From Pseudomonas sp. B21_DOA (GTDB lineage: Bacteria; Pseudomonadota; Gammaproteobacteria; Pseudomonadales; Pseudomonadaceae): a stretch of 64,000 nucleotides of DNA. Positions 5,885 through 56,733 of this stretch are shown here, in pieces; the stretch's first letter is position 1, and every line of letters begins with the position of its first letter. The notes under the pieces were generated by a model that did not search any database, had not been told where the DNA came from, and was given only the letters and a program-made list of their open reading frames with translations. The position numbers and the translations under genes are program-made. Where the stretch lies: NCBI GenBank assembly GCA_030544685.1, contig CP086683.1, positions 3,906,001 to 3,970,000 on the forward strand, given 5' to 3'.

Positions 5885-6070
5885 GGGGTCTTCTCTCTAT
5901 TAGCGCCCAATCAAGTGATGTGCCGGCGGTTGGGCTTACCGTGCGGCGGGTTACTTGTACTGATGCACGCAACCGGGGGCGGGTCACAAGTGAAACAAAC
6001 AAATTTCAAGTTCTTTACATAACGTAAGTTCGTTTCGTTGATCCTGCCATGTCTGAACACCGCGCTGAAT

Positions 6071-6219
6071 TCACCCTCACCCAACCCTCTCCCCGAGGAG
6101 AGGGAGCCGATTTGTGGGCTTTTCAAACTCGAGTCCGGCTTGGTCTTTCAGATCGGCGTACCCCGTGCAAACACCTCGGTCAGTTCCCTCTCGCTCGGGA
6201 GAGGGTTAGGGTGAGGGGC
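6071..6219. repeat. second-class REP palindrome in a 519-bp gene-free stretch
   Basis: Left arm TCACCCTCACCCAACCCTCT and right arm AGAGGGTTAGGGTGAGGGGC face each other across about 110 bp. This is a different sequence family from the GTGGGAGC REPs elsewhere in the window. It lies in the 5885-6403 gap between divergent genes. The remainder of that gap (6240-6350) is AT-rich and probably holds the promoter of the sigma-54 activator gene, but I see no confident -35/-10 pair. Confidence 0.75.
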
Positions 6220-6403
6220 CGCTCTCTGACACAAAGCAAATAGTCGATAGCTAACTAACAACCAACTTTCTTATAACTCTTTTAACAACCTCCCTATAAG
6301 CAATCGATACAAGCCCCCGTCAAAATCTTGCTAGTGTTACAACCGGGTCTGCCAAATGACTGTTTTTACAATCATTTCCAATGTTTGGCGCCAAGGAACA
6401 GTC

Positions 6404-7729
6404 ATGAGCGAAGCGCCTGCGTCGAGACGTTTACTGGTGGTCGATCCCTGCGACGACTGTCATCGCCTGTTGCCCGGATTGCGCGCCGTAGGCTGGGATG
6501 TCGACAGTTGTAATCTTGAGAATGCCAGCGCGCGCGCCTGCGACGTCGGCCTGCTGCGCTTGCAGCCGTTTCACCTTGAACGCCCTGACGCGGTCAAGGA
6601 GCTGATCAGCCGCAGCGGCACCGAATGGATCGCCGTACTCAATCAGGAAGTCCTGCGTTTGCAGAACGTCGGCGACTTCGTCTGTGAATGGTTCTTCGAC
6701 TTCCATACCTTGCCCTTCGACGTCTCGCGCGTACAGGTCACCCTGGGTCGTGCTTTCGGCATGGCGCGCCTGCGCGGGCAGGGCACGATACATGTCGACC
6801 AGCCGGAACACGAACTGCTGGGCGACAGCAAACCGATTCGCGAACTGCGCAAACTGCTGAGCAAACTTGCACCGACCGAATCGCCCGTGCTGATTCGCGG
6901 CGAAAGCGGCACCGGCAAAGAACTGGTCGCCCGCACCCTGCACCGACAATCCCAGCGCCACAACAAACCGTTCGTAGCAATCAACTGCGGCGCGATTCCC
7001 GAGCATTTGATCCAGTCCGAACTCTTCGGCCACGAGAAAGGCGCGTTCACTGGCGCCCATCAGCGCAAGGTCGGGCGCATCGAAGCCGCCAACGGCGGCA
7101 CGTTGTTCCTCGACGAAATCGGCGACCTGCCGCTGGAATTGCAAGCCAATCTGCTGCGTTTTCTCCAGGAAAAGCACATCGAGCGGGTCGGCGGCAGTCA
7201 GCCGATCCCGGTCGACGTGCGAGTGTTGGCCGCCACCCACGTCGACCTGGAAGCAGCGATTGAGAAGAAACGCTTTCGTGAAGACCTGTATTACCGGCTG
7301 AACGTGCTGCAAGTGGTGACCGCACCATTACGTGAACGCCATGGCGATCTGTCGATGCTGGCCAACCACTTTTCGCACTTCTACAGCCATGAAACCGGGC
7401 GCCGACCAAGAAGCTTCAGCGAAGATGCGTTGATTGCCATGGGCAAGCACGACTGGCCGGGGAATGTCCGCGAGCTGGCGAACCGGGTACGGCGCGGGTT
7501 GGTGTTGGCAGAGGGGCGGCAGATCGAGGCGCGGGATCTGGGATTGATCAGCCAGCATTCCATCGCAACACCGATGGGCACGCTGGAGGATTACAAGACC
7601 CGGGCGGAGCGGCAGGCGTTATGTGATGTGCTTAACCGGCATAGTGATAATTTGAGTGTGGCCGCGAAAGTGTTAGGGGTTTCGCGGCCTACTTTTTATC
7701 GGTTGTTGCATAAGCATCAGATTCGCTGA
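6404..7729 (+). CDS. sigma-54 dependent transcriptional activator, VpsR/FleQ type
   Basis: A 441-aa bacterial enhancer-binding protein. Residues about 1-130 form a degenerate receiver-like domain of the VpsR/FleQ kind; the usual phospho-Asp is not evident (DVGLLRL at that strand). The AAA+ domain follows, with Walker A GESGTGKE, the sigma-54 contact loop GAFTGA and Walker [13 protein letters not shown]. The C-terminus is a Fis-type helix-turn-helix ([17 protein letters not shown]). Start 6404 is preferred over 6356 because AAGGAA sits 7 bases before it. It lies on the opposite strand, 2.5 kb beyond the end of the fap operon, whose promoter is sigma-54-like. A role in fap activation, perhaps with a nucleotide second messenger as in VpsR and FleQ, is inference. 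Confidence 0.88.
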
Positions 7730-7764: not shown

Positions 7765-9966
7765 CTAGCCGCCTTCTGACTCTCTTAACCGAATATTGTC
7801 AATACGCATTCGTCCGTATCCGGCGATAGTCAGGCCAACGGTGCTAAAGTTCAACTCTTTCGCAGTAAATCTAACGCTAGTAGAAGCCCAGCGAGAGGTC
7901 GCTGGAAGTTTCGGCGGTATCACTTCATTGACTCCAAAAGTGACAGAGGCTTGTTCCAACATATAATCGAAACTCAGTGTGTAAGCCCTGCCAGATTTCA
8001 TAGACGGGAAGAGTTTTTTTATAATTATCCCTTCGCTCCCCGAAGAGTTGCTCTTGATTGATTCAAGGAAATGTTGTCCTGCCTCGAGGACAACTTTGGA
8101 CGGAAAAGAAGATCCATCCATGTCCAGCCAGCCATCCCGATTACCTTCCGTGAAATCGGTACACTCATCTAGTCCCGCCTTAATCGAATAATGTCGAGTT
8201 TGGCAAGCAGTAGCGTCACTCCATTCAGAGGCACTGAACAGCGCAACGTTTAAAATAACCGTCAGTCGCGAATCCGCCTTACACCCCCGCAACCACTCCA
8301 CCTCTGTCAAATAACTAAGCCCCACCCCCTGATCATGTACTGCTCCTACAAACTGCTCCTTAACCCGCTCCCCACCGTCGGCAAACGTCTCCACATACTT
8401 CAACCAGATCTTCAACCCCGCCCGCTGAAACGGCCAGGCCCCACACAACACCTTCGTATCATCCTTGATCAACCCGATATCCAACACCTCCCCATCAAAG
8501 CCCTCAAACTTCGGCATCGGCATGCTCAACTGCAGCAACTCACCAATCTTCAGTCCCACACTCTGAACCGGCGTTTCCTGCCCAGCACTGATCACCCGAT
8601 ATTTCAAAACCACCGTGCGCTGCAAGTTCGCCCCGGTAATCGAGAAATGCACTTTGAATTCGACTTTCGTTTGCCCAGCCGCTACGACCTTTTTCTCTGG
8701 CGGCACCGAACCATCACCCGGGCGTCCGACCACTTCCAGTTCAAGCTCGTCATTGGCGTTCAACCTCAAGTTATTGAACACCACCGTGAAGCCGTTTTGA
8801 TGCAGGTTAGGATCAAGCAAATACGCCGGCGCTTCGACGACGGTCGGTGGTTCCAGTTGTTTGATTTCACCCGTTACGGTGACGCTTGCGTCGTTGGACG
8901 TGCCAGCGAGCAGGCCGGCCCGGCATACCTCATATTTCGCCTTGGCCGAACCGCCGCCGAGGGCCTGGACCGAAGCGTTGGGAATTTCGAAGTCGAAGTG
9001 GTCGGGCACCGAGCCCACTGATTTCTTCAGCGGCCCGACGACAATCGGTTGCCCCTGAGGCGGAGTGCCGGTCCAGGTCAGGCGGACCTCATCATCTTGC
9101 TGAAAGACCGGCGAGGTGAAATACACCCTGACAATGACGTTGCTGCTACCCAGTTGAGCGAGATCGATGATGGCAACGGTTTGGTTGTTGACCCGAATCA
9201 ATGGCGCCGGCAACCGGTCGGTCAGATCGACCGACACATATGTGAATTTTGCCCAAGGGTCTTGCGGATCACTGAGATTGCCAACACGGTCAACCACACG
9301 GAAGGTCACCGGAATATCGCGGCCGTTACCTTGCCTTTTGATGACCTCCTCAGTGAACGTCACGAAAATCGGATTGTTGTCTGGACCATCAATCTGCTCG
9401 CGAGTGACCGGATAGAACGACACTTCTTCGTCTCTCCACTTGCCTACGATACGGTCGTAAGTGGCGATGTTCTGGTAGTGCTCAATGAGCATCCGAATTC
9501 CGCCCTTGGCCATTTCCGCACCCACTCCCTTGGATGGATCCGGTACCAGGCTGTATTTGAGGCCAGAGTGCCCCGGCTCGCTGTCGGTATCTTCGCCGCC
9601 GGGGCGGTTGAGCTTCACCCACATCAGCAACTCCTCGGACTTGACCGGTTCCTGGGGAAAACGGGTGACGGTATAAAAGACCTTGGCGGAGTCATTGGTG
9701 ATGAATCCAACCGGGACTTCAAACCTCAGCCGCTGGACCGTGGTGTCGTTGATTATTTGTGTTTTGACCGGCGTGTCGTCGTTATCCCAATACAGTTCGC
9801 ATTTGTCGTCCAGTGCCAGATTCAACCAAGCGTCGACAAGCACAACAAGGTTTCCGTCTGCGATGGACTCTAATGAAATACCACCGTGGTAAATCTCCGG
9901 TGTCTCCAGCTTGGTGGCCGAAGGAATATGAGGCGGAAACAAGTCTGCTGCGCGAAGGACGGTCAT
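7765..9966 (-). CDS. large all-beta Ig-like repeat protein with variable-looking C-terminus, function unknown
   Basis: A 733-aa protein. Start 9966 (MTVLRAADLF) is chosen because GAGGAG lies 7 bases upstream; an ATG 18 bases earlier has no such site. There is no signal peptide or transmembrane helix. The first ~570 residues look like successive beta-sandwich modules of about 100-120 aa (recurring patterns such as DELELEVVGRPGDG and DEVRLTWTGTPPQG). The last ~130 residues (from about GLDECTDFTEGNRDGW to MRIDNIRLRES) resemble a carbohydrate-binding-type jelly roll. DNA encoding that last part (about 7765-8250) is visibly more AT-rich than the rest, suggesting exchange of the C-terminal domain. 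A 22-bp perfect palindrome lies 77 bases upstream. I recognise the general type as common in fluorescent pseudomonads but know no function. Confidence 0.7.
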   Translation of the reverse strand: MTVLRAADLFPPHIPSATKLETPEIYHGGISLESIADGNLVVLVDAWLNLALDDKCELYWDNDDTPVKTQIINDTTVQRLRFEVPVGFITNDSAKVFYTVTRFPQEPVKSEELLMWVKLNRPGGEDTDSEPGHSGLKYSLVPDPSKGVGAEMAKGGIRMLIEHYQNIATYDRIVGKWRDEEVSFYPVTREQIDGPDNNPIFVTFTEEVIKRQGNGRDIPVTFRVVDRVGNLSDPQDPWAKFTYVSVDLTDRLPAPLIRVNNQTVAIIDLAQLGSSNVIVRVYFTSPVFQQDDEVRLTWTGTPPQGQPIVVGPLKKSVGSVPDHFDFEIPNASVQALGGGSAKAKYEVCRAGLLAGTSNDASVTVTGEIKQLEPPTVVEAPAYLLDPNLHQNGFTVVFNNLRLNANDELELEVVGRPGDGSVPPEKKVVAAGQTKVEFKVHFSITGANLQRTVVLKYRVISAGQETPVQSVGLKIGELLQLSMPMPKFEGFDGEVLDIGLIKDDTKVLCGAWPFQRAGLKIWLKYVETFADGGERVKEQFVGAVHDQGVGLSYLTEVEWLRGCKADSRLTVILNVALFSASEWSDATACQTRHYSIKAGLDECTDFTEGNRDGWLDMDGSSFPSKVVLEAGQHFLESIKSNSSGSEGIIIKKLFPSMKSGRAYTLSFDYMLEQASVTFGVNEVIPPKLPATSRWASTSVRFTAKELNFSTVGLTIAGYGRMRIDNIRLRESEGG

Positions 9967-10042
9967 GGCGATGCTCCTCAACATGGGCTGGTCACGGTCA
10001 ACCAGGCACTGGAGGTATCAAACGTCATTCATGCGAAAAGGA

Positions 10043-10185: not shown

Positions 10186-11502
10186 CTAGAAGTAATACGG
10201 GAATTTCAGGCTGAACGAAAAGTCCGGCGCATCATCGGTCATGCCGATCGACAAGTTCGGCACGATCGTCAGGTTGTCGGTGGCCGCGATGGTCATGCCG
10301 ACGTTGAAGTAACCGGCGTTGGCGTCACTCGACACCACCGATTCCCAATCGCCGCCGTCCTGTTTCAGCTTGCTCTTGCGCTGCACCAGGTCGGAGACCG
10401 AGAACGACATGCTCATCTTCTCGTTGAGGGCGAAGGCGATGCCGGCGCCGATCTGGAAGCTGTCGCCGATGCGCACTTTGCCTGGGGTTTTCTGGTTGAC
10501 GGTGGAGCTGATGTCGTCGAACGACTCCTCGAGGTTGTGGGTGTAGGAGAGGCTGCCGAACAGCACCGCCGGGTCGAACGTCTTGACCAGCGAGATGCCC
10601 GGGGTGATCGACCAGACGCCGTTGCCGGTGGGCAGGGTGTCGGGCACGAACAGGTTGGAGTTGGCGTCGGTCTGGCGCAGCTTGATGCCGAACGGGTCTT
10701 TGCCGGTCGGCGCCTTGACGCGCAAGGTGACGACGGCGTCCGGGGTGTTGACCGACTCGTCGAGGAACTTGTAGGCGATACCGAAGTTGACGTCGCCAAT
10801 GGTTGGATCCTTGGTCACGGTTTCTTCGGTGGTCACACCTGCAGCGCCCTGATTGCCGCCGCCGGACTGATACGTCGACTCGCGATAGACCACCGGCACG
10901 TTCAGGTCGAACTGCCAGCGATTGTCGAAGTTGTAGCGGCCGGTGAGGTCCAAGGTCCAGGTGTCGGCCTTGATCCGGTCGAGGTTGATGTTGCCCAGGA
11001 AGATCGAATCCAGCGCAAGGAAACCGTTCAGGATCAACTGGCGGGTGTCATAGCGTGAATAGGTGACACCGGTTTCGAAACTGAACTTGCCGCCACCGAA
11101 AAAGCCGCTGGCCTCGTCGTACAGGTTGGAAACACTTTGCGCCGGTTGCGAATCGTCAGCCAGCGATTGACCGTAGGAAGCGCCACTGCCCTCGGCGGCG
11201 CCTCCCGATGCAGCGGCCGCACCGGTGCCTGTGGCGGCTCCGGTAGCGACGCGATTGCCTTTCATGTCGGACGGCGATTTGGCCAGCCGTTTTGGCGGTG
11301 GGGCGGCGGGTGTTTCTTCTACCTGGCGGACCCGTTGTTCAAGTACCGCCAGCGCTTGTTGTTGTTGTTCGTATCGTTGCTTCAGTTCCAGAAGTTCCCG
11401 TTTCAGGGCTTCTACATCGGCGTCGGGCGCTGCTTGCAGCATTGCCGCCGGGAGAAGGGTACTCAAACACACTGCAGCACGCAGTGATACTGATCGATAC
11501 AT
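10186..11502 (-). CDS. fapF: FapF, outer-membrane amyloid secretion channel
   Basis: A 438-aa protein that in the Fap system exports amyloid subunits across the outer membrane. It has a signal peptide (ending near LQAAPDA), an N-terminal coiled coil of about 40 residues ([18 protein letters not shown]), a Gly/Ala-rich linker, and a C-terminal beta-barrel domain of amphipathic strands ending in the aromatic residue of FPYYF, as expected for BAM-assembled barrels. It is the last gene of fapABCDEF, with the same order as in P. aeruginosa and P. fluorescens. The gap to fapE is 45 bases. A REP hairpin follows the stop. Confidence 0.92.
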
Positions 11503-11547: not shown

Positions 11548-12294
11548 TCAATATCCGATATTGCGTAGGGCCCCGAGTTGGGTCAGGTTGCAGTCCAGTG
11601 CACCGGCGCTTCTGCCGTTATTGTTAAGTACGACGTTGAGTTGCGTAAGGTTGTTGACCACGTTGGCACTGCCCAGCAAACGGGTGTTCTGCAGCAGCCC
11701 GCCCTGGGCGACCTGTTGCAGTGCGTTACCTTGATTGCCGCTGGCCTGAATGGCCATTTGCACGCCACCGCCATTGACGGAAACCGCGACGCTGCCGGCG
11801 CCGTTGCTGCCGGTGATGGTCTGCCCGGCGACAAGGGCCTGACCTTGCGATGGCACCAGAGCCGGCGCCTGACTGGCTTCACTGACGTTGATTGCAACGT
11901 TGTTGTTGGCGGTGTTGCCATCGCCGGCGGCGCGCACGCTTTGCGTCACGCCCTGAGTGCTGTTGAGGCCGGCTCCGCCAATCACGGTGCCGGTGCCCAA
12001 GGTGGGCGTACTGCCGTTGCCCGACTCCTTGATGGTCGAGACATAAAATTCCGGTTTGACGGTTGCAGCCTGGACCTGCATTGAGGTCGCGGCCCCGATC
12101 AAGTCGCCGCTGGCGTTGCGCCAGGTGCTGCTCATGACAATGCCGAAGCTGATGATCCGCCCCGGCATGACGTACCGACCGCGCAGCTCGGCGAGCTCCT
12201 GGTCCTTGATTTCGATGGGTTTGAATCCGGCATGGGCAAAGCCTGACGCACCCGCTGCCAGGCAGGCGGCGGCCAGCCAGTATGAGGTTTTCAT
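11548..12294 (-). CDS. fapE: FapE, secreted minor amyloid component
   Basis: A 248-aa protein with a signal peptide (cleavage near FAHAGFK) and Asn/Gln/Gly/Ser/Ala-rich secretory sequence, for example GNTANNNVAINVSEA and NVVNNLTQLNVVLNNN. A single Cys sits near the C-terminus (ALDCNL). Start 12294 is chosen over 12312 because GGGAGCAGCAG lies just before it. Position between fapD and fapF and composition identify it as FapE, which is found in small amounts in purified Fap fibrils and thought to act at export or assembly. Confidence 0.88.
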   Translation of the reverse strand: MKTSYWLAAACLAAGASGFAHAGFKPIEIKDQELAELRGRYVMPGRIISFGIVMSSTWRNASGDLIGAATSMQVQAATVKPEFYVSTIKESGNGSTPTLGTGTVIGGAGLNSTQGVTQSVRAAGDGNTANNNVAINVSEASQAPALVPSQGQALVAGQTITGSNGAGSVAVSVNGGGVQMAIQASGNQGNALQQVAQGGLLQNTRLLGSANVVNNLTQLNVVLNNNGRSAGALDCNLTQLGALRNIGY

Positions 12295-12337
12295 CTGCTG
12301 CTCCCGGGACATCCAGTCCCATTCTCTAACTCGGCGA

Positions 12338-13018
12338 TTAAAAGAAGTCGCTCTGAATGAACCCGAAATCCATCAATTCCGCATCTTTGACCGGGTTGAA
12401 ACCGTCCAGCGAGTTCTTCGCCGTCAGCGGCACGGGAGGGCTGCGCAAGGCGTTGGCCTTGTCATAACCGGGGCCGACGATGGCAAAGACAATTCCGTTC
12501 CAACCTTTGACAAAGTCATCGTGTTTGTAGCGCTTGTGGCCGAGAACCGGGTCACCGATATAGACCCAATCCTTGTCCGAACGCTGCAGGACGACGAAAT
12601 GCTTGTAGCCGCGAATGTCCATCAGGACCACCACCGGAATGGTCACCGCTTCGAGTTTCTCGGGCGGGATCCGGTAGCCACGGGCACGCATGCCGATGCT
12701 TTCTACGTAGCGCTTCATGTCGAGCATGGAGAAACCCTGGGTTCGCACCAGGTCCTGGTCAGCGTTGACCAGCATGCCCTTGATGATGTGCTCCTCATCG
12801 ACGTCGAGCCAATAGGCCTGGCGCAGGACCGTTGCCAGTGCAGCAGCGCCGCAGCTGAAATCGGTTTTCTGTTCGACGATGTCGGCAAACTTGCGCTCAC
12901 GAATGCTTTGCACGTCCTTATAGACCAGCACGCCACCCGGCAGGGCAGCGACGGGCATCTGGGCTGCCTGAGTCAGGCCGCACAGACAAAGCAGAGCGAG
13001 GAGGGCAGGAGTCCGCAT
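12338..13018 (-). CDS. fapD: FapD, C39-family peptidase of the amyloid system
   Basis: A 226-aa periplasmic cysteine protease of family C39, the family that trims double-glycine leaders in bacteriocin export. The catalytic Cys is in the motif FSCGAAALATVLR; the His and Asp are probably in YKHFVVLQ and YIGDPVLG. It has a signal peptide (MRTPALLALLCLCGLTQA). Start 13018 is chosen by that leader; longer upstream ATGs would bury it. In the Fap system FapD is needed for fibre production, probably processing a partner. It is separated from fapC by 65 bases containing a terminator-like hairpin. Confidence 0.92.
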   Translation of the reverse strand: MRTPALLALLCLCGLTQAAQMPVAALPGGVLVYKDVQSIRERKFADIVEQKTDFSCGAAALATVLRQAYWLDVDEEHIIKGMLVNADQDLVRTQGFSMLDMKRYVESIGMRARGYRIPPEKLEAVTIPVVVLMDIRGYKHFVVLQRSDKDWVYIGDPVLGHKRYKHDDFVKGWNGIVFAIVGPGYDKANALRSPPVPLTAKNSLDGFNPVKDAELMDFGFIQSDFF

Positions 13019-13045
13019 GATCGAATACGCCTTGTGGAACCTGGG

Positions 13046-13069
13046 AAAAAGCCCCGTTGCCGGGGCTTT
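13046..13069 (-). terminator. intercistronic terminator/attenuator between fapC and fapD
   Basis: On the minus strand a GC-rich stem (GAAAGCCCCG-GCAA-CGGGGC) ends in TTTTT. It sits between the fapC stop and the fapD start, inside the operon, so most transcripts probably end here and only a fraction reads into fapDEF. Confidence 0.78.
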
Positions 13070-13083
13070 CGTTTCGATCGCGA

Positions 13084-14076
13084 TTACATGCAGGCTTTGC
13101 AACCTGCGGCGATGGACAGCGAGTTGCTTTGTTGGTTGCCCACACCCGCCGAGACGTTGGCTCCGCCGTTGCCGGAGAAGTTGTTCATCGAGTTGGTCAT
13201 GTTGGCATTGTTGACGACTGGGGTTTTCCAGCCATCTTTGGTCAGCACTTGTTGGGTGGTGACGCCAGCGAGGCCAAAGCTGCCCACGGCTTCGAACTTG
13301 GCTTTCTGATCATCGTTGCCGCCGTGGCCGCCGCCACGGTTACCCCAACCGCCATGGTTGTTGTCGTCTTCGATGGTCGCGGTGCCTTTGGCTTTGAATA
13401 CGCCAGCGGCTGCATAAGTACCGGTAAGAGTGTCGGTTTTGTAAGCCTGCACGCCTTTGTTTTCCACGACCAGGCCAGTCGAGGACTGGTTGGCAGAGGC
13501 AGCAGCCTGCGCTACACGACCACCAGAAACGGCGATGGCGAGGTTGTTTTTCTGTTGGTTGAAGTTGCCGGCGGTCACGTTGATGCCAATGTTGCCGGAA
13601 CCGTTGTTGCCAGCGTTGTTGAGCGTGGCGTTGTTGAAGGTGGAGGAGTTTTTCACGTAGTTGTTGTTGTTCACCTGAGTCGCGCTCGAGGCGGCAACAG
13701 CATTACCGAAGATAAAGCTTTCGTCAGCGGTGGCCAGTGCAGCAGCGTTGTCCTGCTGGTTGCCGTCGCCGCCAGCCACGTTGGCGCCCATGTTGCCGTT
13801 GGAGCCATTGAGCGAGTCGCTGGCATTGGCGTTGTTCAGGGTGCCCTGGTTTTTTACCACGTTGCCGTCGCTGTTTTGCGCGTCGAGGACAGCGGCGCCG
13901 GCGCCTGCGGTGATCTGCAGCAGTTGTTCAAGGTTAGGTCCTTGAGGCTGGCCGTGACCATTGCCGTGCCCGTTACCATGACCGTTATCGTCACCACGGC
14001 CGCCGGCCTGTGCTGCCATTGCCATCACTGCTGCGAGTGCGAAAACCAGTGGTTTGAGAGCCATTGTAGGTTTCAT
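13084..14076 (-). CDS. fapC: FapC, major functional amyloid subunit
   Basis: A 330-aa secreted protein, the main fibre subunit of Pseudomonas functional amyloid. It has a signal peptide (MALKPLVFALAAVMAMAAQA region) and a His/Gly/Asn-rich segment. Three imperfect amyloid repeats follow, each rich in Asn, Gly and Gln and ending in GN-QQ-N (GGDGNQQDNAAALA; AGNFNQQKNNLAIAV; AGVGNQQSNSLSIA), separated by two linkers. The C-terminus carries the conserved CxxC (GCKACM). GGAGAAAC precedes the ATG. It is the third gene of the operon, preceded by fapB after 73 bases and followed by an intrinsic terminator, which fits its need for excess expression. Confidence 0.95.
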   Translation of the reverse strand: MKPTMALKPLVFALAAVMAMAAQAGGRGDDNGHGNGHGNGHGQPQGPNLEQLLQITAGAGAAVLDAQNSDGNVVKNQGTLNNANASDSLNGSNGNMGANVAGGDGNQQDNAAALATADESFIFGNAVAASSATQVNNNNYVKNSSTFNNATLNNAGNNGSGNIGINVTAGNFNQQKNNLAIAVSGGRVAQAAASANQSSTGLVVENKGVQAYKTDTLTGTYAAAGVFKAKGTATIEDDNNHGGWGNRGGGHGGNDDQKAKFEAVGSFGLAGVTTQQVLTKDGWKTPVVNNANMTNSMNNFSGNGGANVSAGVGNQQSNSLSIAAGCKACM

Positions 14077-14149: not shown

Positions 14150-14722
14150 TCAGTCAGCGACCCGGATGCTCAGGGTGTTAGCCATGCGGTTCCCCACCCC
14201 GGCACTCTGGTTCACCTGGATGACCCCGCGACTGCCGGTGAAGGCCTGATCACTTGTCGTGACCTGGCGACTGCCGATCGAGGTACCAGTTGCTCCTGAG
14301 CTCGGTAAAAACGCCACGTTCTGTTGCGAAAGGGCGCTGTCGTCAACGCTCTGCGGGCCGGCACTGATGCTGACGCGCGTCACGTTGGCCATTTGATTGT
14401 TGGCTCCGGCGCCCTGGTTCACGCCGAGGATGCCGTTGCCGTTGCTGAAAGAGTTGCCGCCGATGTTGGCGCTCGCGTCGATGGCGCGGCTGGCAGGCGT
14501 GTCGATGGTTTGCCTGACGCTGGTGGTGGCATGGGATTCGGTGCCGATGGCAATCGCCTTGGTGTTGGCTTGTTGCATCTGGTCACCGGCTGCCTGGTTG
14601 ACGTTGAAGTTGCCGCGATACTGAGCGCCGGAATCCTGAATATTCGCTTTGTTGACCGAGGTCGAATCGGCCATGGCGCTGGTGCAGCCGAGCAGGGCGA
14701 GAAGCAGCAGGGTGCGATTCAT
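14150..14722 (-). CDS. fapB: FapB, minor amyloid subunit / nucleator
   Basis: A 190-aa secreted protein with a signal peptide (MNRTLLLLALLGCTSAMA). It has three amyloid-type repeats with the core VNQ-AG---QMAN (GNFNVNQAAGDQMQQAN; GILGVNQGAGANNQMAN; GVIQVNQSAGVGNRMAN). It resembles FapC but is shorter and lacks the CxxC. In the Fap system FapB is proposed to nucleate FapC fibrils. The start is 1 base from the fapA stop (TGA-C-ATG), with GGAGG inside the fapA 3' end, so translation is coupled. Confidence 0.92.
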   Translation of the reverse strand: MNRTLLLLALLGCTSAMADSTSVNKANIQDSGAQYRGNFNVNQAAGDQMQQANTKAIAIGTESHATTSVRQTIDTPASRAIDASANIGGNSFSNGNGILGVNQGAGANNQMANVTRVSISAGPQSVDDSALSQQNVAFLPSSGATGTSIGSRQVTTSDQAFTGSRGVIQVNQSAGVGNRMANTLSIRVAD

Positions 14723-14723
14723 G

Positions 14724-15173
14724 TCATTGGCCTCCGGCCATGCGGGTCAGAGGCGCCAGGCCGGTGCTCATCGCCCGGTTGACGGTGTTGGAAATCGAGG
14801 CGCCAGAACCGCCGCCACTGCCGCTGCGCATGCCGGGCAGGCCGTTCTGGTTGGTCAGGGTGTTCATGCCTGGCAGGTTGGAACTGGGCGTAGTCATGTT
14901 GCCGCGAATCGACGAGCCACTGGCGACGCTGGCGAAATCGCCGTCGCTGAGTTCGGTGCTGCTGAGGGTCTGATTGATCCGCGCCGAAGGGTTGGCATTG
15001 ACGGTGGTCGGGTAGGGGTCTTTGCCGCCATTACGCCCGATCGGGATTGGCTGAACGTCGCGGTTGAGGACGATCACTCCATTGCCTTCGGCCTGGGCGC
15101 TGACACTGATCAATGCGCTGGCGGCTGATCCGATCAGCAGGAGGCAGGTCAGGCTTTTATTGAGATTCCCCAC
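14724..15173 (-). CDS. fapA: FapA, first gene of the amyloid operon
   Basis: A 149-aa periplasmic protein. It starts with GTG, with AGAAGGA nine bases before. A signal peptide (to about ISVSAQAEG) is followed by a low-complexity Ser/Gly/Asn/Thr-rich chain without repeats. In Fap systems FapA is proposed to keep subunits unfolded in the periplasm and to affect the FapB/FapC ratio in fibres. Identification rests on operon order and composition. The predicted sigma-54 promoter lies about 54-70 bases upstream. Confidence 0.87.
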   Translation of the reverse strand: MGNLNKSLTCLLLIGSAASALISVSAQAEGNGVIVLNRDVQPIPIGRNGGKDPYPTTVNANPSARINQTLSSTELSDGDFASVASGSSIRGNMTTPSSNLPGMNTLTNQNGLPGMRSGSGGGSGASISNTVNRAMSTGLAPLTRMAGGQ

Positions 15174-15225
15174 GGCGGCGATTCCTTCTTCAGTGGGCTG
15201 GGTTGTTCAGCGTTGTGAAGGAGAG

Positions 15226-15243
15226 AGCGAAAGCTGTGCCGGG
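15226..15243 (-). promoter_or_regulatory. sigma-54 (-24/-12) promoter of fapABCDEF
   Basis: On the minus strand CCGGCACAGCTTTCGCT has the invariant GG and GC at exactly 10-bp separation, close to the consensus TGGCAC-N5-TTGCW (the -12 element has one mismatch, TCGC). Transcription would start near 15215, giving a leader of about 40 bases before the fapA GTG. Confidence 0.72.
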
Positions 15244-15304
15244 TTTAGATTGTTTATTTAAATCAAGGGCTTAGTTATTTTGAGCGAGGCAGGTGTGTGG
15301 CTAC

Positions 15305-15477
15305 TGTTTCACTGTTGAAACACAGCGAGAGCCGCTTGAGTGGACATCGACTTTGGAAAGCTCTGGCACAAGGGTTTGCGCCGATGTGTTTCATTGACGT
15401 AACAGATGGCGTCACGGATTGATGAACAGCGTTTGGACGCGGCTTTGCGAGGGCAGGAGTGTTTCAAAAACGGACAG
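15305..15477 (-). promoter_or_regulatory. three candidate enhancer dyads upstream of the fap promoter
   Basis: Three 18-bp elements of form TGTTTC-N6-GNAACA: TGTTTCACTGTTGAAACA at 15305-15322 (perfect arms), TGTTTC-ATTGAC-GTAACA at 15387-15404 (one arm mismatch), and a weaker TGTTTC-AAAAAC-GGACAG at 15460-15477. They lie about 65, 145 and 220 bp upstream of the -24/-12 element, the usual distance for sigma-54 activators. The gap 15174-15505 holds no gene. Confidence 0.6.
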
Positions 15478-15505
15478 ATGCGCCCAAAAATACCGGTGTG
15501 GTGGC

Positions 15506-16030
15506 TCAGGCGGACAACAGACGCTCGACCGCCGCAAAGGCTTGGGCCTGGCGTTCGACCCAGTTGCCTTCAATAACCTGCAGCGGCCGTTGATGCTGGA
15601 TCAACCAGTCGCGAGTGGCTTCGAAGAACGCCATGCGATCGTCAAGATCCGGCTGGCAGCGTTGGCCGTCTTCGGCCCAGTCGACTTGTTGCGGCGACAG
15701 CAGCAGGTGCAGGTCGTAGTGGCGCGCGAGCAACTCGGCTTCAAGCCAGTCCGGGCAAGCGCCGAACAGGGTCTGGCTCCAGAGGATGTTGCTCAGCAGG
15801 TGAGTGTCGAGGATCAGCAGGGAGGGTTGCTGCGCTCGCGCCTGATCTTCCCAGCGCAACTGGCCTCGGGCGATAGCAGGAATATCCGCCAAACAGGTGT
15901 CACGGGGATTGTCTTCGATGAACCGACGGACATATTCATCAACGCGCACGCCGCCGAAACGCTGCTCCAATCCCGCCGCCAGCCAGCTCTTGCCGGTGGA
16001 TTCCGGGCCGGTAAGGACTACGACTTTCAT
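15506..16030 (-). CDS. NadR-type ATP-binding kinase (nicotinamide riboside kinase domain)
   Basis: A 174-aa cytoplasmic P-loop kinase matching the C-terminal ribosylnicotinamide kinase domain of NadR, without the adenylyltransferase or HTH parts. Walker A is GPESTGKS at residues 8-15; ILDTHLLSN is a Walker-B-like strand; DDRMAFFEATRDWL matches the family's C-terminal pattern. Start 16030 (MKVVVLTGP) overlaps the pnuC stop as ATGA. Pairing with PnuC indicates that imported nicotinamide riboside is phosphorylated to NMN for NAD salvage. The pathway role is inferred from the pair. Confidence 0.85.
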   Translation of the reverse strand: MKVVVLTGPESTGKSWLAAGLEQRFGGVRVDEYVRRFIEDNPRDTCLADIPAIARGQLRWEDQARAQQPSLLILDTHLLSNILWSQTLFGACPDWLEAELLARHYDLHLLLSPQQVDWAEDGQRCQPDLDDRMAFFEATRDWLIQHQRPLQVIEGNWVERQAQAFAAVERLLSA

Positions 16031-16590
16031 GTGCGCAACGCCGGATCGGCGCGCCACTCACGCCAGCCTTCAACGGCGAGCAGAGTGAACAGCCCATAGA
16101 GGCCTGCGGTCAGGTACAGGCCTTTATAGATGAACAGGCCTACAAAAATGACATCGAGGACAAACCACAGCGCCCAGCATTGCAAGCGTTTCTGCGCCAT
16201 CCACAGTTGTGCGACCAGGCTGAAACCGGTGAGCGCGGCATCGAGCCACGGCTGGGCGGCGTCGGTCCAGTGTGCCATCGCGGCGCCCAGCAGCAGGCTG
16301 CCGATGGCCCCGACGCCGAGACCGAGCAGAATTGAGCGCGCGTCGAGGCGGGTGACTTGGCGCCCGTCATGCATCGTCCCGGCGCGGGTCCACTGCCACC
16401 AGCCGTAGATTTGCAGCGCGGCATAGATCACTTGCAGCAACATGTCCGAATACAGCTTCACCTCAAAGAAGATCCAGCTGTAGAGCAACACCATGACCAG
16501 CCCGATCGGCCAGCACCATGGATTCTGTTTGACCGTCAGCCACACGGCGATGACACCGAGGGCAGCGGCGAACAGTTCAAGCCCGGACAT
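16027..16590 (-). CDS. pnuC: PnuC, nicotinamide riboside transporter
   Basis: A 187-aa inner-membrane protein with about seven hydrophobic helices. It is Trp/Tyr-rich in the way typical of PnuC (WCWPIGLVMVLLYSWIFF, YGWWQWT). It imports nicotinamide riboside by facilitated diffusion, trapped by phosphorylation by the coupled NadR-type kinase. Start 16590 (MSGLELF) gives the family's usual N-terminus. The stop overlaps the kinase start, so the two genes are one unit. Confidence 0.92.
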   Translation of the reverse strand: MSGLELFAAALGVIAVWLTVKQNPWCWPIGLVMVLLYSWIFFEVKLYSDMLLQVIYAALQIYGWWQWTRAGTMHDGRQVTRLDARSILLGLGVGAIGSLLLGAAMAHWTDAAQPWLDAALTGFSLVAQLWMAQKRLQCWALWFVLDVIFVGLFIYKGLYLTAGLYGLFTLLAVEGWREWRADPALRT

Positions 16591-26857: not shown

Positions 26858-28222
26858 GTGGGAGCGAGCCTGCTCGCGATGACGGCAGTACATCCAACAT
26901 CGCAGCCGCCTGACCCGACGCTTTCGCGAGCAAGCCCGCTCCCACAGTGGATCTGTGTTGTGCCGGGATTCTTTGCACGCCGCCGAGCCTTGTAGGAGTG
27001 AGCCTGCTCGCGATGACGGCAGCCCATCCGAAATCGCAGTCGCCTGACCCGGCGCTTTCGCGAGCAAGCCCGCTCCCACAGTGGATCTGTGTTGTGCCGG
27101 GATTCAATGCACGCCGCCGAATCCTGTGGGAGTGGGCTTGCTCACGAAGAGGGCATCACATTCAGCATCACAGCCGCCTGCCCCGACGCTTTCGCGAGCA
27201 AGCCCGCTCCCACAGTGGATCTGTGTTGTGCCGGGATTCAATGCACGCCGCCGAACCCTGTGGGAGTGGGCTTGCTCACGAAGAGGGCAGCCCATCCGAC
27301 ATCGCCTTCGCCTGACCTGGCGCTTTCGCGAGCAGGCTCGCTCCCACAGTGGATCTGTGTTGTGCCGGGATTTAATGCACGCCGCCGAATCCTGTGGGAG
27401 TGAGCTTGCTCACGAAGAGGGCGGCACATTCAGCATCACAGTCGCCTGCCCCGGCGCTTTCGCGAGCAGGCTCGCTCCCACAGTGGATCTGTGTTGTGCC
27501 GGGATTTAATGCACGCCGCCGAATCCTGTGGGAGTGGGCTTGCTCACGAAGAGGGCAGCACATTCAGCATCACAGTCGCCTGACCCGGCGCTTTCGCGAG
27601 CAGGCTCGCTCCCACAGTGGATCTGTGTTGTGCCGGGATTTAATGCACGCCGCCGAATCTTGTGGGAGTGGGCTTGCTCACGAAGAGGGCGGCACATCCG
27701 AAATCGCAGTCGCCTGACCCGGCGCTTTCGCGAGCAAGCCCGCTCCCACAGTGGATCTGTGTTGTGCCGGGATTTAATGCACGCCGCCGAATCCTGTGGG
27801 AGTGGGCTTGCTCACGAAGAGGGCGGCCCATCCGACATCGCAGCCGCCTGACCCGGCGCTTTCGCGAGCAAGCCCGCTCCCACAGTGGATCTGTGTTGTG
27901 CCGGGATTTAATGCACGCCGCCGAATCCTGTGGGAGTGGGCTTGCTCACGAAGAGGGCGGCCCATCCGACATCGCAGCCGCCTGACCCGGCGCTTTCGCG
28001 AGCAAGCCCGCTCCCACAGTGGATCTGTGTTGTGCCGGGATTTAATGCACGCCGCCGAATCCTGTGGGAGTGGGCTTGCTCACGAAGAGGGCGGCCCATC
28101 CGACATCGCAGCCGCCTGACCCGGCGCTTTCGCGAGCAGGCTCGCTCCCACAGTGGATCTGTGTTGTGCCGGGATTCTTTGCACGCCGCCGAATCTTGTG
28201 GGAGTGGGCTTGCTCACGAAAG
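26858..28222. repeat. tandem array of about ten 134-bp REPIN units
   Basis: Each unit is an inverted REP pair. The left arm is GTGGGAGTGGGCTTGCTCAC, the right arm is TTTCGCGAGCAAGCCCGCTC. The internal spacer reads roughly gaagagggcggcccatccgac then atcgcagccgcctgacc, and the external spacer contains GTGGATCTGTGTTGTGCCGG and TGCACGCCGCCGAATC. The external spacer recurs ten times at 134-bp steps and a single REP closes the array near 28200. Units 5-10 are nearly identical; the left-most two differ most. This explains all short overlapping ORFs here; the 26707-28245 gap holds no gene. The array separates proP from oprB. Confidence 0.93.
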
Positions 28223-28245
28223 CGGCATTACATTCACCGCGAGGC

Positions 28246-29543
28246 TTAAAGCGCAGCCTTCACCTGCAAACCGACCACCAGCGCATTGTCGATGTCCTGG
28301 CCGGAAAACGCGCCCGGTTCGATGATGTATTGCAGGTTCGGGCGCAGGGTCAGCCATGGGGTGGCCTGGTAGCCGTAGCCCAATTCGATCAACTGCTCGG
28401 CGCTGTCGAGGTTCGGGAACGCAGCACCATTGGCCAGCGCGGCATCCTGCTGCACATCACGGCTGCGCGGGTTCGGCACGGCGCGGCCGTAGCCCAGCGC
28501 GAGGGTGTCACGCGGACGACCTTCGAACGGTTTGTACAAAACCACACCGGTGCCGTACCACTTGCTGAACGGCGAGGCGGCTTCGCTGGCCGCCGAATAC
28601 TGACCGAATGCATGCAGGCTGCGGCCCTCGGAGGTCGGCGAACGCCATACGGCCTGATCGATCAGCAAATAATGCCCGCCACGCCCGGACACCTCGTCGT
28701 CGCTGCCAATGCGTTTGACGTCGGAGCTGTCGTAGTAATAGCCGAGCTTGTACTCACCCGGCAGCTCGCCGGCGTGCTTGTACACCAGCTCGATCGGCAC
28801 GACGGTGCCGGTGGTGTGCTTCGGCCCAAGATGCCAGGCGCGGCTGGAATTGCCGTTACTTTCTGGATCGACGTTGAACGCCGCCACACGCAGCTGCCAG
28901 GACGGCGACAGGTCGTATTTGACCCGCACGCCCAGACGAGCGTTGGGGTAGTTGGTCCAGCCGCTGCCGCCGGACATGTTCAGCGGATGGCCGCAAAAAC
29001 CGGCGTTCATGAAGTTGCACAGAATGCCGCTGTCGAGACCGCCGAGGTCGTTGCCCATGGCCATGTAGCCGAGCTTGACGTTCAGCGCCGGGGTGAACAG
29101 GCTGCGCTCGTAACTCAGTTCAGTCAGGCGCGTGTACAGGCCGCCGTAGTTTTCCTGAATCGGCAGGCGGTTGCCGACCAGATCTTCCGAAGCGCTGTTA
29201 CCGCGACGGTCGTTGATGGTCAGTTGCACTTTACCGGCGTTGTCGACGCCGTAGAGTTTGCTCAGATCAAACTGCACGCCGAGTTTGATGTTCTGCGAGT
29301 AGCGCGCCGAACGGTGCAGGCCGCCGTCGGCGTTGTAAGCGGTTTCGCCGCTGTAATCGCCAGTGAACTTGACGCCGTCTGCATCGAGTTGATGACGCAA
29401 GCCGCCCCAGTCACCGGTGAGGGTGCTGCGGGTCAGCAGATCGGAATCGCTGGCGGCCAGCGCGGGAGGGCAGTGGTGCAGCTCAGGCCCAGCAACAGGC
29501 CAGTGGAAAGTTTGGTACGAGAAAAGCGAACAGCCGATGACAT
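28246..29543 (-). CDS. oprB: OprB-family carbohydrate-selective porin, frameshift in signal peptide
   Basis: About 432 aa after repair. It is an outer-membrane beta-barrel for glucose and other sugars. The mature part is intact, from ASDSDLLTRSTLTGDWGG to the C-terminal VGLQVKAAL. The true N-terminus lies in another frame: MSSAVRFSRTKLSTGLLLG from 29543, a normal signal peptide. The frames join at the GGG run 29464-29466; one more base gives TTALPALAASDSD. Translation from in-frame upstream codons (to 29604) would produce a non-signal-like leader, so that is not the real start. It is next to gcd, on the same strand: together they serve peripheral glucose uptake and oxidation. Confidence 0.9.
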
Positions 29544-52363: not shown

Positions 52364-52798
52364 GACGCCTTCGCGAGCAAGCCCGCTCCCACAGGGATGT
52401 CGGGTGTACCACCTGATTCTTGATTCACAATAGAACCAATGTGGAGGGGGCTTGCTCCCGAAGGCGGTGGGCCAGCTTGCGTATTCATCGGCTGAGAGGA
52501 CGCCTTCGCGAGCAAGCCCGCTCCCACGGGGATGTCGGGTGTACCACCTGATCCTTGTTCCACCACAGAACCACTGTGGGAGGGGCTTGCTCCCGAAGGC
52601 GGTGGGCCAGCTTGCATATTCATCGGCTGAGAGGACGCCTTCGCGAGCAAGCCCGCTCCCACAGGGATGTCGGGTGTACCACCTGATTCTTGATCCACCG
52701 CAGAACCACTGTGGGAGGGGCTTGCTCCCGAAGGCAGTGGGCCAGCTTGCATATTCATCGGCTGACACACCGCTATCGCGAGCAGGCTCGCTCCCACA
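52364..52798. repeat. tandem REP cluster, three to four units of about 134 bp
   Basis: Units pair CTTCGCGAGCAAGCCCGCTC (52368, 52503, 52637; last copy near 52770 reads CTATCGCGAGCAGG) with GTGGGAGGGGCTTGCTCCCG. Spacers GGGATGTCGGGTGTACCACC and GGTGGGCCAGCTTGC recur. The gap 52266-52817 holds only this cluster and the short remnant frame. Confidence 0.88.
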
Positions 52799-55530: not shown

Positions 55531-56695
55531 CTGTAGGAGTGAGCCTGCTCGCGAAGACGGCGGCACATCCAACATCTTCTTTAACTGACCCAATGCATTC
55601 GCGAGCAGGCTCGCTCCCACAGGTTTTCGCGGCGTGTGCCAAATCCCGGCGACACGCAAAATCCACTGTGGGAGCGAGCCTGCTCGCGAAGACGGCGGCA
55701 CATTCAACATCTCATCGCCAGACCGAATGCATTCGCGAGCAAGCCCGCTCCCACAGGTTTTCGCGGCGTGTGCCAAATCCCGGCAACCCACAATATCCAG
55801 TGTGGGAGTGAGCTTGCTCGCGAAGACGGCGGCACATTCAACATGTCATCGCCTGGCCGAATGGCTTCGCGAGCAAGCCCGCTCCCACAGGTTTTCGCGG
55901 CGCGTGCCAAATCCCGGCAACCCACAATATCCAGTGTGGGAGCGGGCTTGCTCGCGAAGACGGCGGCACATTCAACATCTCATCGCCAGACCGAATGCAT
56001 TCGCGAGCAAGCCCGCTCCCACAGTTTTCGCGGCGCGTGCCAAATCCCGGCAACCCCAATAACCAGTGTGGGAGCGGGCTTGCTCGCGAAGACGGCGGCA
56101 CATTCAACATCTTCATCGCCTGACCCAGCGCATTCGCGAGCAAGCCCGCTCCCACAGTTTTCGCGGCGCGTGCCAAATCCCGGCAACCCACAATATCCAG
56201 TGTGGGAGCGGGCTTGCTCGCGAAGAAGGCGGCACATTCAACATCTCATCGCCCGACCGAATGCATTCGCGAGCAAGCCCGCTCCCACAGTTTTCGCGGC
56301 GCGTGCCAAATCCCGGCAACCCACAATATCCAGTGTGGGAGTGAGCTTGCTCGCGAAGACGGCGGCACATTCAACATCTTCATCGCCTGACCGAATGCAT
56401 TCGCGAGCAAGCCCGCTCCCACAGGTTTTTGCGGCGTGTGCCAAATCCCGGCAACCCACAATATCCAGTGTGGGAGCGGGCTTGCTCGCGAAGACGGCGG
56501 CACATTAAACATCTCATCGCCAGACCGAATGCATTCGCGAGCAAGCCCGCTCCCACAGGTTTTCGCGGCGCGTGCCAAATCCCGGCAGCACACAAAACTC
56601 AATGTGGGAGCGAGCCTGCTCGCGAAGACGGCGGCACATTAAACATTTCATCGCCAGACCGAATGCATTCGCGAGCAAGCCCGCTCCCACAGGGG
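55531..56695. repeat. tandem array of nine 134-bp REPIN units
   Basis: Left arms GTGGGAGCGGGCTTGCTCGC begin near 55531, 55668, 55802, 55935, 56067, 56200, 56333, 56468 and 56602. Each is followed by GAAGACGGCGGCACATTCAA, a right arm ATTCGCGAGCAAGCCCGCTC, and the inter-unit spacer TTTTCGCGGCGYGTGCCAAA. Units 2-8 are nearly identical. All ORFs in 55515-56733 are repeat translations; no gene is present. Confidence 0.93.
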
Positions 56696-56733
56696 ACCTG
56701 CGTGGATTATGGGTTTGGGGATCAGCAGGCCAG

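Follow-up and report, generated by a model that had tools for sequence, protein, structure and literature searches.

VpsR of Vibrio cholerae is a c-di-GMP-responsive regulator of matrix genes. In Pseudomonas, FleQ similarly connects c-di-GMP with matrix genes, on which it acts without RpoN (PMC9207406), and in Burkholderia cenocepacia RpoN and the c-di-GMP effector BerB have been described in the control of biofilm formation (PMC5552954). The closest described system is that of Pseudomonas fluorescens PF07, in which 5'-RACE placed the start of fapA at a -24/-12 element and in which deletion of rpoN or of brfA lowers fap expression (PMC9207406). Dependence of fap on RpoN had been reported earlier (PMC8202526), while direct control of fapA by BrfA, and sensing of c-di-GMP by this activator, are stated in a 2026 paper that refers to Guo et al. 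2024 (PMC13101488). The RpoN/BrfA/fap circuit is already known, having been published for PF07. No paper naming the dyads described below was found in the open full-text literature, a result which says little as Guo et al. 2024 lay outside that search.

In the current study, the equivalent locus was analysed in a window of 64,000 nucleotides (the whole stretch of DNA under analysis) from Pseudomonas sp. B21_DOA. NadR-like and PnuC-like genes precede fapA to fapF on the minus strand, and the 332-base interval that separates fapA from the NadR-like gene (15174-15505) constitutes the control region for this amyloid operon. The genes of the locus are as follows.

15506..16057, minus strand: upstream neighbour, NadR-like, AAA_28 domain (PF13521), bounding the regulatory region
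14724..15173, minus strand: fapA, opening the operon, with a GTG start codon (open reading frame; matched by tblastn in relatives where expected)
14150..14722, minus strand: fapB (open reading frame and tblastn synteny)
13084..14076, minus strand: fapC, main amyloid subunit (open reading frame, tblastn synteny and alignment)
12338..13102, minus strand: fapD, C39-type peptidase (PF03412); the start codon is mechanically listed and may lie further in
11548..12312, minus strand: fapE (open reading frame and tblastn synteny)
10186..11502, minus strand: fapF, outer-membrane export protein, found in 48 of 148 family genomes
6404..7729, plus strand: brfA orthologue, 441 aa, 1326-bp open reading frame (Pfam: VpsR domain, sigma-54 activation domain with GAFTGA, Fis-type helix-turn-helix)

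The Pfam search found no family for the product of the first gene, which we take to be fapA from the known order of fap operons. The locus resembles that of PF07 in the operon itself, in the -24/-12 promoter before fapA and in the activator gene, which is convergent with and beyond fapF and has the same length as PF07 brfA (1326 bp); by place and length, the gene at 6404 is the orthologue of PF07 brfA. The window differs from PF07 in the presence of a 739-aa open reading frame between fapF and brfA (7765-9984, minus strand), which lies on the fap strand and is possibly read with fap. In several relatives no more than about 150 bases separate fapF from brfA where the window has this reading frame.

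The earlier note had placed the activator in the VpsR/FleQ type, and the first half of that assignment stands. The N-terminal domain is PF20161 (VpsR; 35 bits against a curated cut-off of 23.7) and its profile matches the VpsR structures 7y19 and 7v2b, but this domain is not of the FleQ type, as no FleQ family was present among the eight Pfam matches of the protein at E 0.001. The protein also matches the sigma-54 activation domain PF00158 (6e-74) with a GAFTGA loop in the sequence, and a Fis-type helix-turn-helix (HTH_8) is detected at E 2.4e-4 and 21.2 bits, just under the cut-off of 22. By our reading, the protein seems to lack the receiver aspartate at the usual position. BrfA has the PF20161 domain, the AAA+ core and a matrix target in common with VpsR of V. 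cholerae, although the two proteins are distant and their target genes differ. FleQ provides the nearest solved AAA+ core by sequence (8pb9), whereas the N-terminal domain of BrfA is VpsR-type.

Within the control region, the following elements were recognised.

15460..15476, strand not assigned: third element, TGTCC-N5-TGAAACA as read on the minus strand, a 17-bp variant dyad; possible weak BrfA site
15387..15404, strand not assigned: second dyad, TGTTTCATTGACGTAACA in plus-strand reading, one change from GAAACA; proposed BrfA site
15305..15322, strand not assigned: proximal dyad, TGTTTCACTGTTGAAACA in plus-strand reading, perfect, 81 bp upstream of the -24 element; proposed BrfA site
15226..15241, minus strand: -24/-12 element, CGGCACAGCTTTCGCT, from sequence, with GG and GC ten bases apart; conserved

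The sigma-54 element proposed in the earlier note is indeed present before the amyloid operon, as CGGCACAGCTTTCGCT at 15226-15241 on the minus strand, and transcription would be expected to start near 15215. By a loose count, a -24/-12-like match alone is not rare in the window: 55 GG-N10-GC sites, the fap element included, score at least 9 on a simple consensus count, and 34 of the 55 belong to one TGGGAG-type repeat. The form [CT]GGCAC-N5-YYGCW arose on the strand of the element in 15 of 5000 dinucleotide shuffles of 15174-15505. A -24/-12-like element lies upstream of fap in each of 50 fap clusters from across the family and in all 75 analysed named relatives; a further locus outside the 75, L222, has a variant AGGCAT form.

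Three TGTTTC-N6-GNAACA dyads, spaced at 75-80 bp, had been claimed upstream of this promoter. Two of them are real (15305-15322 and 15387-15404), the third misfits the pattern, and the spacing is not quite as claimed, measuring 82 and 73 bp. A dyad with a matrix score of at least 20 occurred in one of 5000 dinucleotide-preserving shuffles of 15174-15505, and two or more such dyads in none. With a matrix of 89 sites, none of them from the own genus, the two dyads are the two highest-scoring matches of the 64-kb window (25.1 and 21.3, the next match scoring 13.6). Their occurrence by chance is unlikely. Since the window shows no enrichment for TGTTTC-N6-GNAACA when up to two mismatches are allowed (17 matches against 13.2 expected), the case for the dyads rests on the near-perfect sites and on their conservation.

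The third element reads TGTTTC-AAAAAC-GGACAG on the plus strand from 15460, which is off TGTTTC-N6-GAAACA at four of 12 positions and off the GNAACA form at three of 11, and with the 18-bp matrix it fails, scoring -1.2. TGT-N7-TGAAACA is present exactly at its place in 62 of the 75 named relatives, and most g9 clusters possess an 18-bp dyad of at least 10 bits at a similar distance (-239 to -243). The place is strongly conserved, and we read the element as a variant third site, perhaps a weakened one.

Conservation was assessed in 148 Pseudomonadaceae genomes, 48 of which contain FapF. These 48 yielded 50 fap clusters, since G142 and G064 each have a second cluster, for which there was no fapF match; these second clusters (L074 and L075) consist of fapA to fapE with their own brfA copy and dyads. 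Between -280 and -55 of the -24 element, dyads of at least 10 bits number one in a single cluster, two in 19 and three in 30, such that 49 of the 50 have two or more; fap sites were themselves among those from which the matrix was built. The nearest dyad is situated at -80 to -83 in 46 of the 50 clusters, and the position and spacing of the outer dyads differ between genera. A second set comprised named relatives (P. fluorescens, P. koreensis, P. siliginis, P. khorasanensis and others) and is biased to close kin, being drawn from the best 80 of 441 BrfA matches. Four of these 80 loci end before fapA and 76 reach fapA or fapB, leaving 75 once L222 is set aside; L236 and L239 share one contig. 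In all 75 the nearest dyad lies at -80 to -82 and the second at -160 to -164. The layout of promoter and dyads is kept across the family, and the conservation in relatives on which the earlier note had staked its reading was thus borne out.

In every one of the 48 FapF genomes a BrfA-type protein matched along its full length with at least 547 bits, as did one with at least 397 bits in 23 of the 100 genomes without FapF (Fisher p 1.2e-21, phylogeny ignored). The brfA gene sits beside the fap operon in 47 of the 48; in the exception, G047 (L043 and L151), fap is on contig C131 and brfA on another, C71. The orthologue of the 6404 gene co-occurs with the dyads, as the earlier note had suggested checking, in all 48 FapF genomes and all 50 clusters, each with element and dyads. 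This linkage, together with the lowered fap expression of the PF07 brfA deletion (PMC9207406), supports the proposed local regulator-operon pair for functional amyloid. The recognition helix of BrfA, SRPTFYRLL, is conserved along with the sites and reads SRVTLYRMM in the paralogue branch, in an alignment which left out the paralogue of the own genome.

Concerning the specificity of this arrangement, the dyad and the -24/-12 pattern combined at a 64-base gap were found at 20 places in the 148 genomes, 18 of them at fap, and at a 65-base gap at 14 places, 12 of them at fap, with no match in either reversed control. Wrong gaps of 66 and 67 bases gave 11 and six matches, none at fap, and three and one in the reversed controls. 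The four combined matches away from fap comprise another promoter with three dyads in G101, one in G014 with only a single dyad of at least 11, and one each in G045 and G130. The own genome has a single match, the window site before fapA. Across the genomes scanned, the combined geometry occurs almost exclusively at fap, which favours a dedicated local c-di-GMP-to-amyloid switch over a broad regulon.

The dyad itself is more widespread. With at most one mismatch it occurs at ten places in the own genome against one in the control, and eight of the ten are not at fap; any -24/-12-like match lies within 350 bp of only two of these eight, and the relaxed motif gives 17 matches against 15 in the reversed control. 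A broad BrfA regulon was rejected for this geometry on these counts and on the fap-only combined match of the own genome. Autoregulation of brfA was likewise discarded, as the dyads in 5901-6403 score no more than 5.5 and no -24/-12-like sequence there reaches 8. Twelve genomes of g6 and g15 contain no match to TGTTTCA-N4-TGAAACA with up to one mismatch. A lone dyad is found in each of several genomes without a BrfA-type match of 397 bits (three of g17, G007 of g8, and G103 and G109 of the own genus), and the motif is thus not wholly tied to BrfA.

Several further palindromes were noted. Six genomes of the genus have a conserved dyad before a FadL-like gene, with no convincing sigma-54 element. 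In g9 (L177-L181, L134 and L135), conserved paired dyads, whose flanks vary more than the dyads themselves and which have no clear sigma-54 element (L179 being outside the alignment), lie upstream of a flavoprotein/aminotransferase operon and follow a PAS-GGDEF gene. In seven g12 genomes (L274-L280), another palindrome, TGTAGCG-N4-CGCTACA, and a GGCA-type element are separated by a constant interval, and similar sites occur twice in 100 bases in the own genome (G000:C1:5503298 and 5503398); these are perhaps the sites of another activator.

From the elements, their conservation, the fixed geometry and the co-occurrence with brfA, all of which were observed directly, we consider it highly probable that the fap control region is a sigma-54 promoter opened, via looping, by BrfA bound at both dyads and perhaps at the 17-bp variant. 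Sigma-54 RNA polymerase would wait at the -24/-12 element (15226-15241) and BrfA would bind the TGTWTCA-N4-TGAWACA dyads at 15305-15322 and 15387-15404 through its Fis-type helix-turn-helix, perhaps also weakly occupying the variant at 15460-15476. When c-di-GMP is high, the DNA-bound activator would loop over, contact the polymerase and open the promoter by means of its AAA+ ATPase. BrfA as the protein on these dyads, and the looping itself, we infer. Since BrfA is reported to answer c-di-GMP in PF07 (PMC13101488), high c-di-GMP would switch the amyloid matrix on.

It is conceivable that the dyads are bound by some other sigma-54 activator, for example FleQ or this genome's second protein with a VpsR domain (G000:C1:1026096), and that BrfA acts indirectly. 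In the own genome, the domain of that second protein does score above the cut-off and sigma-54 activators are numerous (11 scored matches), and lone dyads sometimes occur in BrfA-less genomes; the invariable presence of brfA with FapF, its near-constant linkage to fap, the reduced fap expression of the PF07 brfA mutant (PMC9207406) and the divergent helix of the paralogue branch (the own-genome paralogue standing outside that alignment) nevertheless render the proposal improbable. Still less probable is that an unrelated repressor or activator occupies the dyads and that the sigma-54 element works from other sites. Near-perfect dyads at loci devoid of a -24/-12-like element, such as that before the FadL-like gene in six genomes of the genus, would accord with such a protein, but 46 of the 50 clusters preserve the distance from the proximal dyad to the -24 element, and few matches to the combined pattern lie outside fap.

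That the dyads are chance palindromes is the least credible reading of all: the relaxed motif and its reversed control are admittedly about equally frequent in the genome, yet the shuffle test, the ranking by the own-genus-free matrix and the conservation in all 75 named relatives, in which flanks and inner bases change, oppose it. Under the preferred reading, with BrfA on the dyads, the operator TGTWTCA-N4-TGAWACA with its nearest site approximately 81-83 bp before the -24 element constitutes an exact family-wide definition for the amyloid switch, which allows binding and mutation tests to be designed with single-base precision. Possibly new are this family-wide operator consensus and geometry, the BrfA-type genes in 23 of 100 FapF-less genomes, and a clade in which this promoter stands before the gene of a single short exported protein that begins like FapA and ends like FapC.

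Among the 23 FapF-less genomes with BrfA, three (G024, G137 and G146) carry close orthologues (77-78% identity) and have kept the promoter, and 20 carry more distant proteins, 19 of which fall in one tree branch that also holds a second copy from G082, G097 standing apart. The FapF-less BrfA-like proteins occur in 17 genomes of g12 and two of g4 and have the same recognition helix as BrfA; those at L076-L083, L085, L086 and L158-L167, in genomes without FapF, show approximately 48-59% identity where listed. No dyad of at least 13 was found in 21 of the distant BrfA-like loci, analysed over 8.5-13.4 kb, which include L084, the second copy of G082, itself a FapF genome.

In G024, G137 and G146 no fap operon is present between brfA and bacA. 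Dyads at about -241 and -166, and a weaker one at -81 (9.6 to 12.4), instead precede a single open reading frame, which stands where fap would lie in these three genomes; G101 possesses a homologue, apart from its complete fap operon, with a promoter of three dyads at -243, -168 and -81. The reading frames of this short exported protein, each with a BrfA-type sigma-54 promoter upstream, are listed below.

L139, 8102-8848: short exported protein
L140, 8051-8623: short exported protein; frame appears broken (G024)
L152, 5122-5778: short exported protein
L308, 3551-4018: short exported protein

The G137 protein has seven matches, including itself, in a collection of 5.8 billion proteins. In a profile comparison by hhalign it matches FapC over the C-terminal half of the latter (probability 97, E 8.6e-11, from two shallow alignments of seven sequences), its start resembles by eye the FapA leader of the sister genome G101, and pieces of fap DNA are detectable around its gene. 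The gene looks like a fap remnant that has become a one-gene target or is decaying from one. We tentatively suggest, as a possibility with somewhat less than even chances, that the role of BrfA is broader than Fap control, having been kept in place after fap loss to drive a reduced, one-gene, c-di-GMP-controlled matrix protein in G024, G137, G146 and G101, and serving other targets in g12 and g4. The analysis also points to lineages, without FapF, that lost the operon and kept the regulator.

Finally, the window contains many copies of TGGGAGYGRGCTTGCT in steps of about 134 bases on both strands (at approximately 26900-28300, 52370-52700 and 55700-56700), arrays which we presume to be REP-type repeats.
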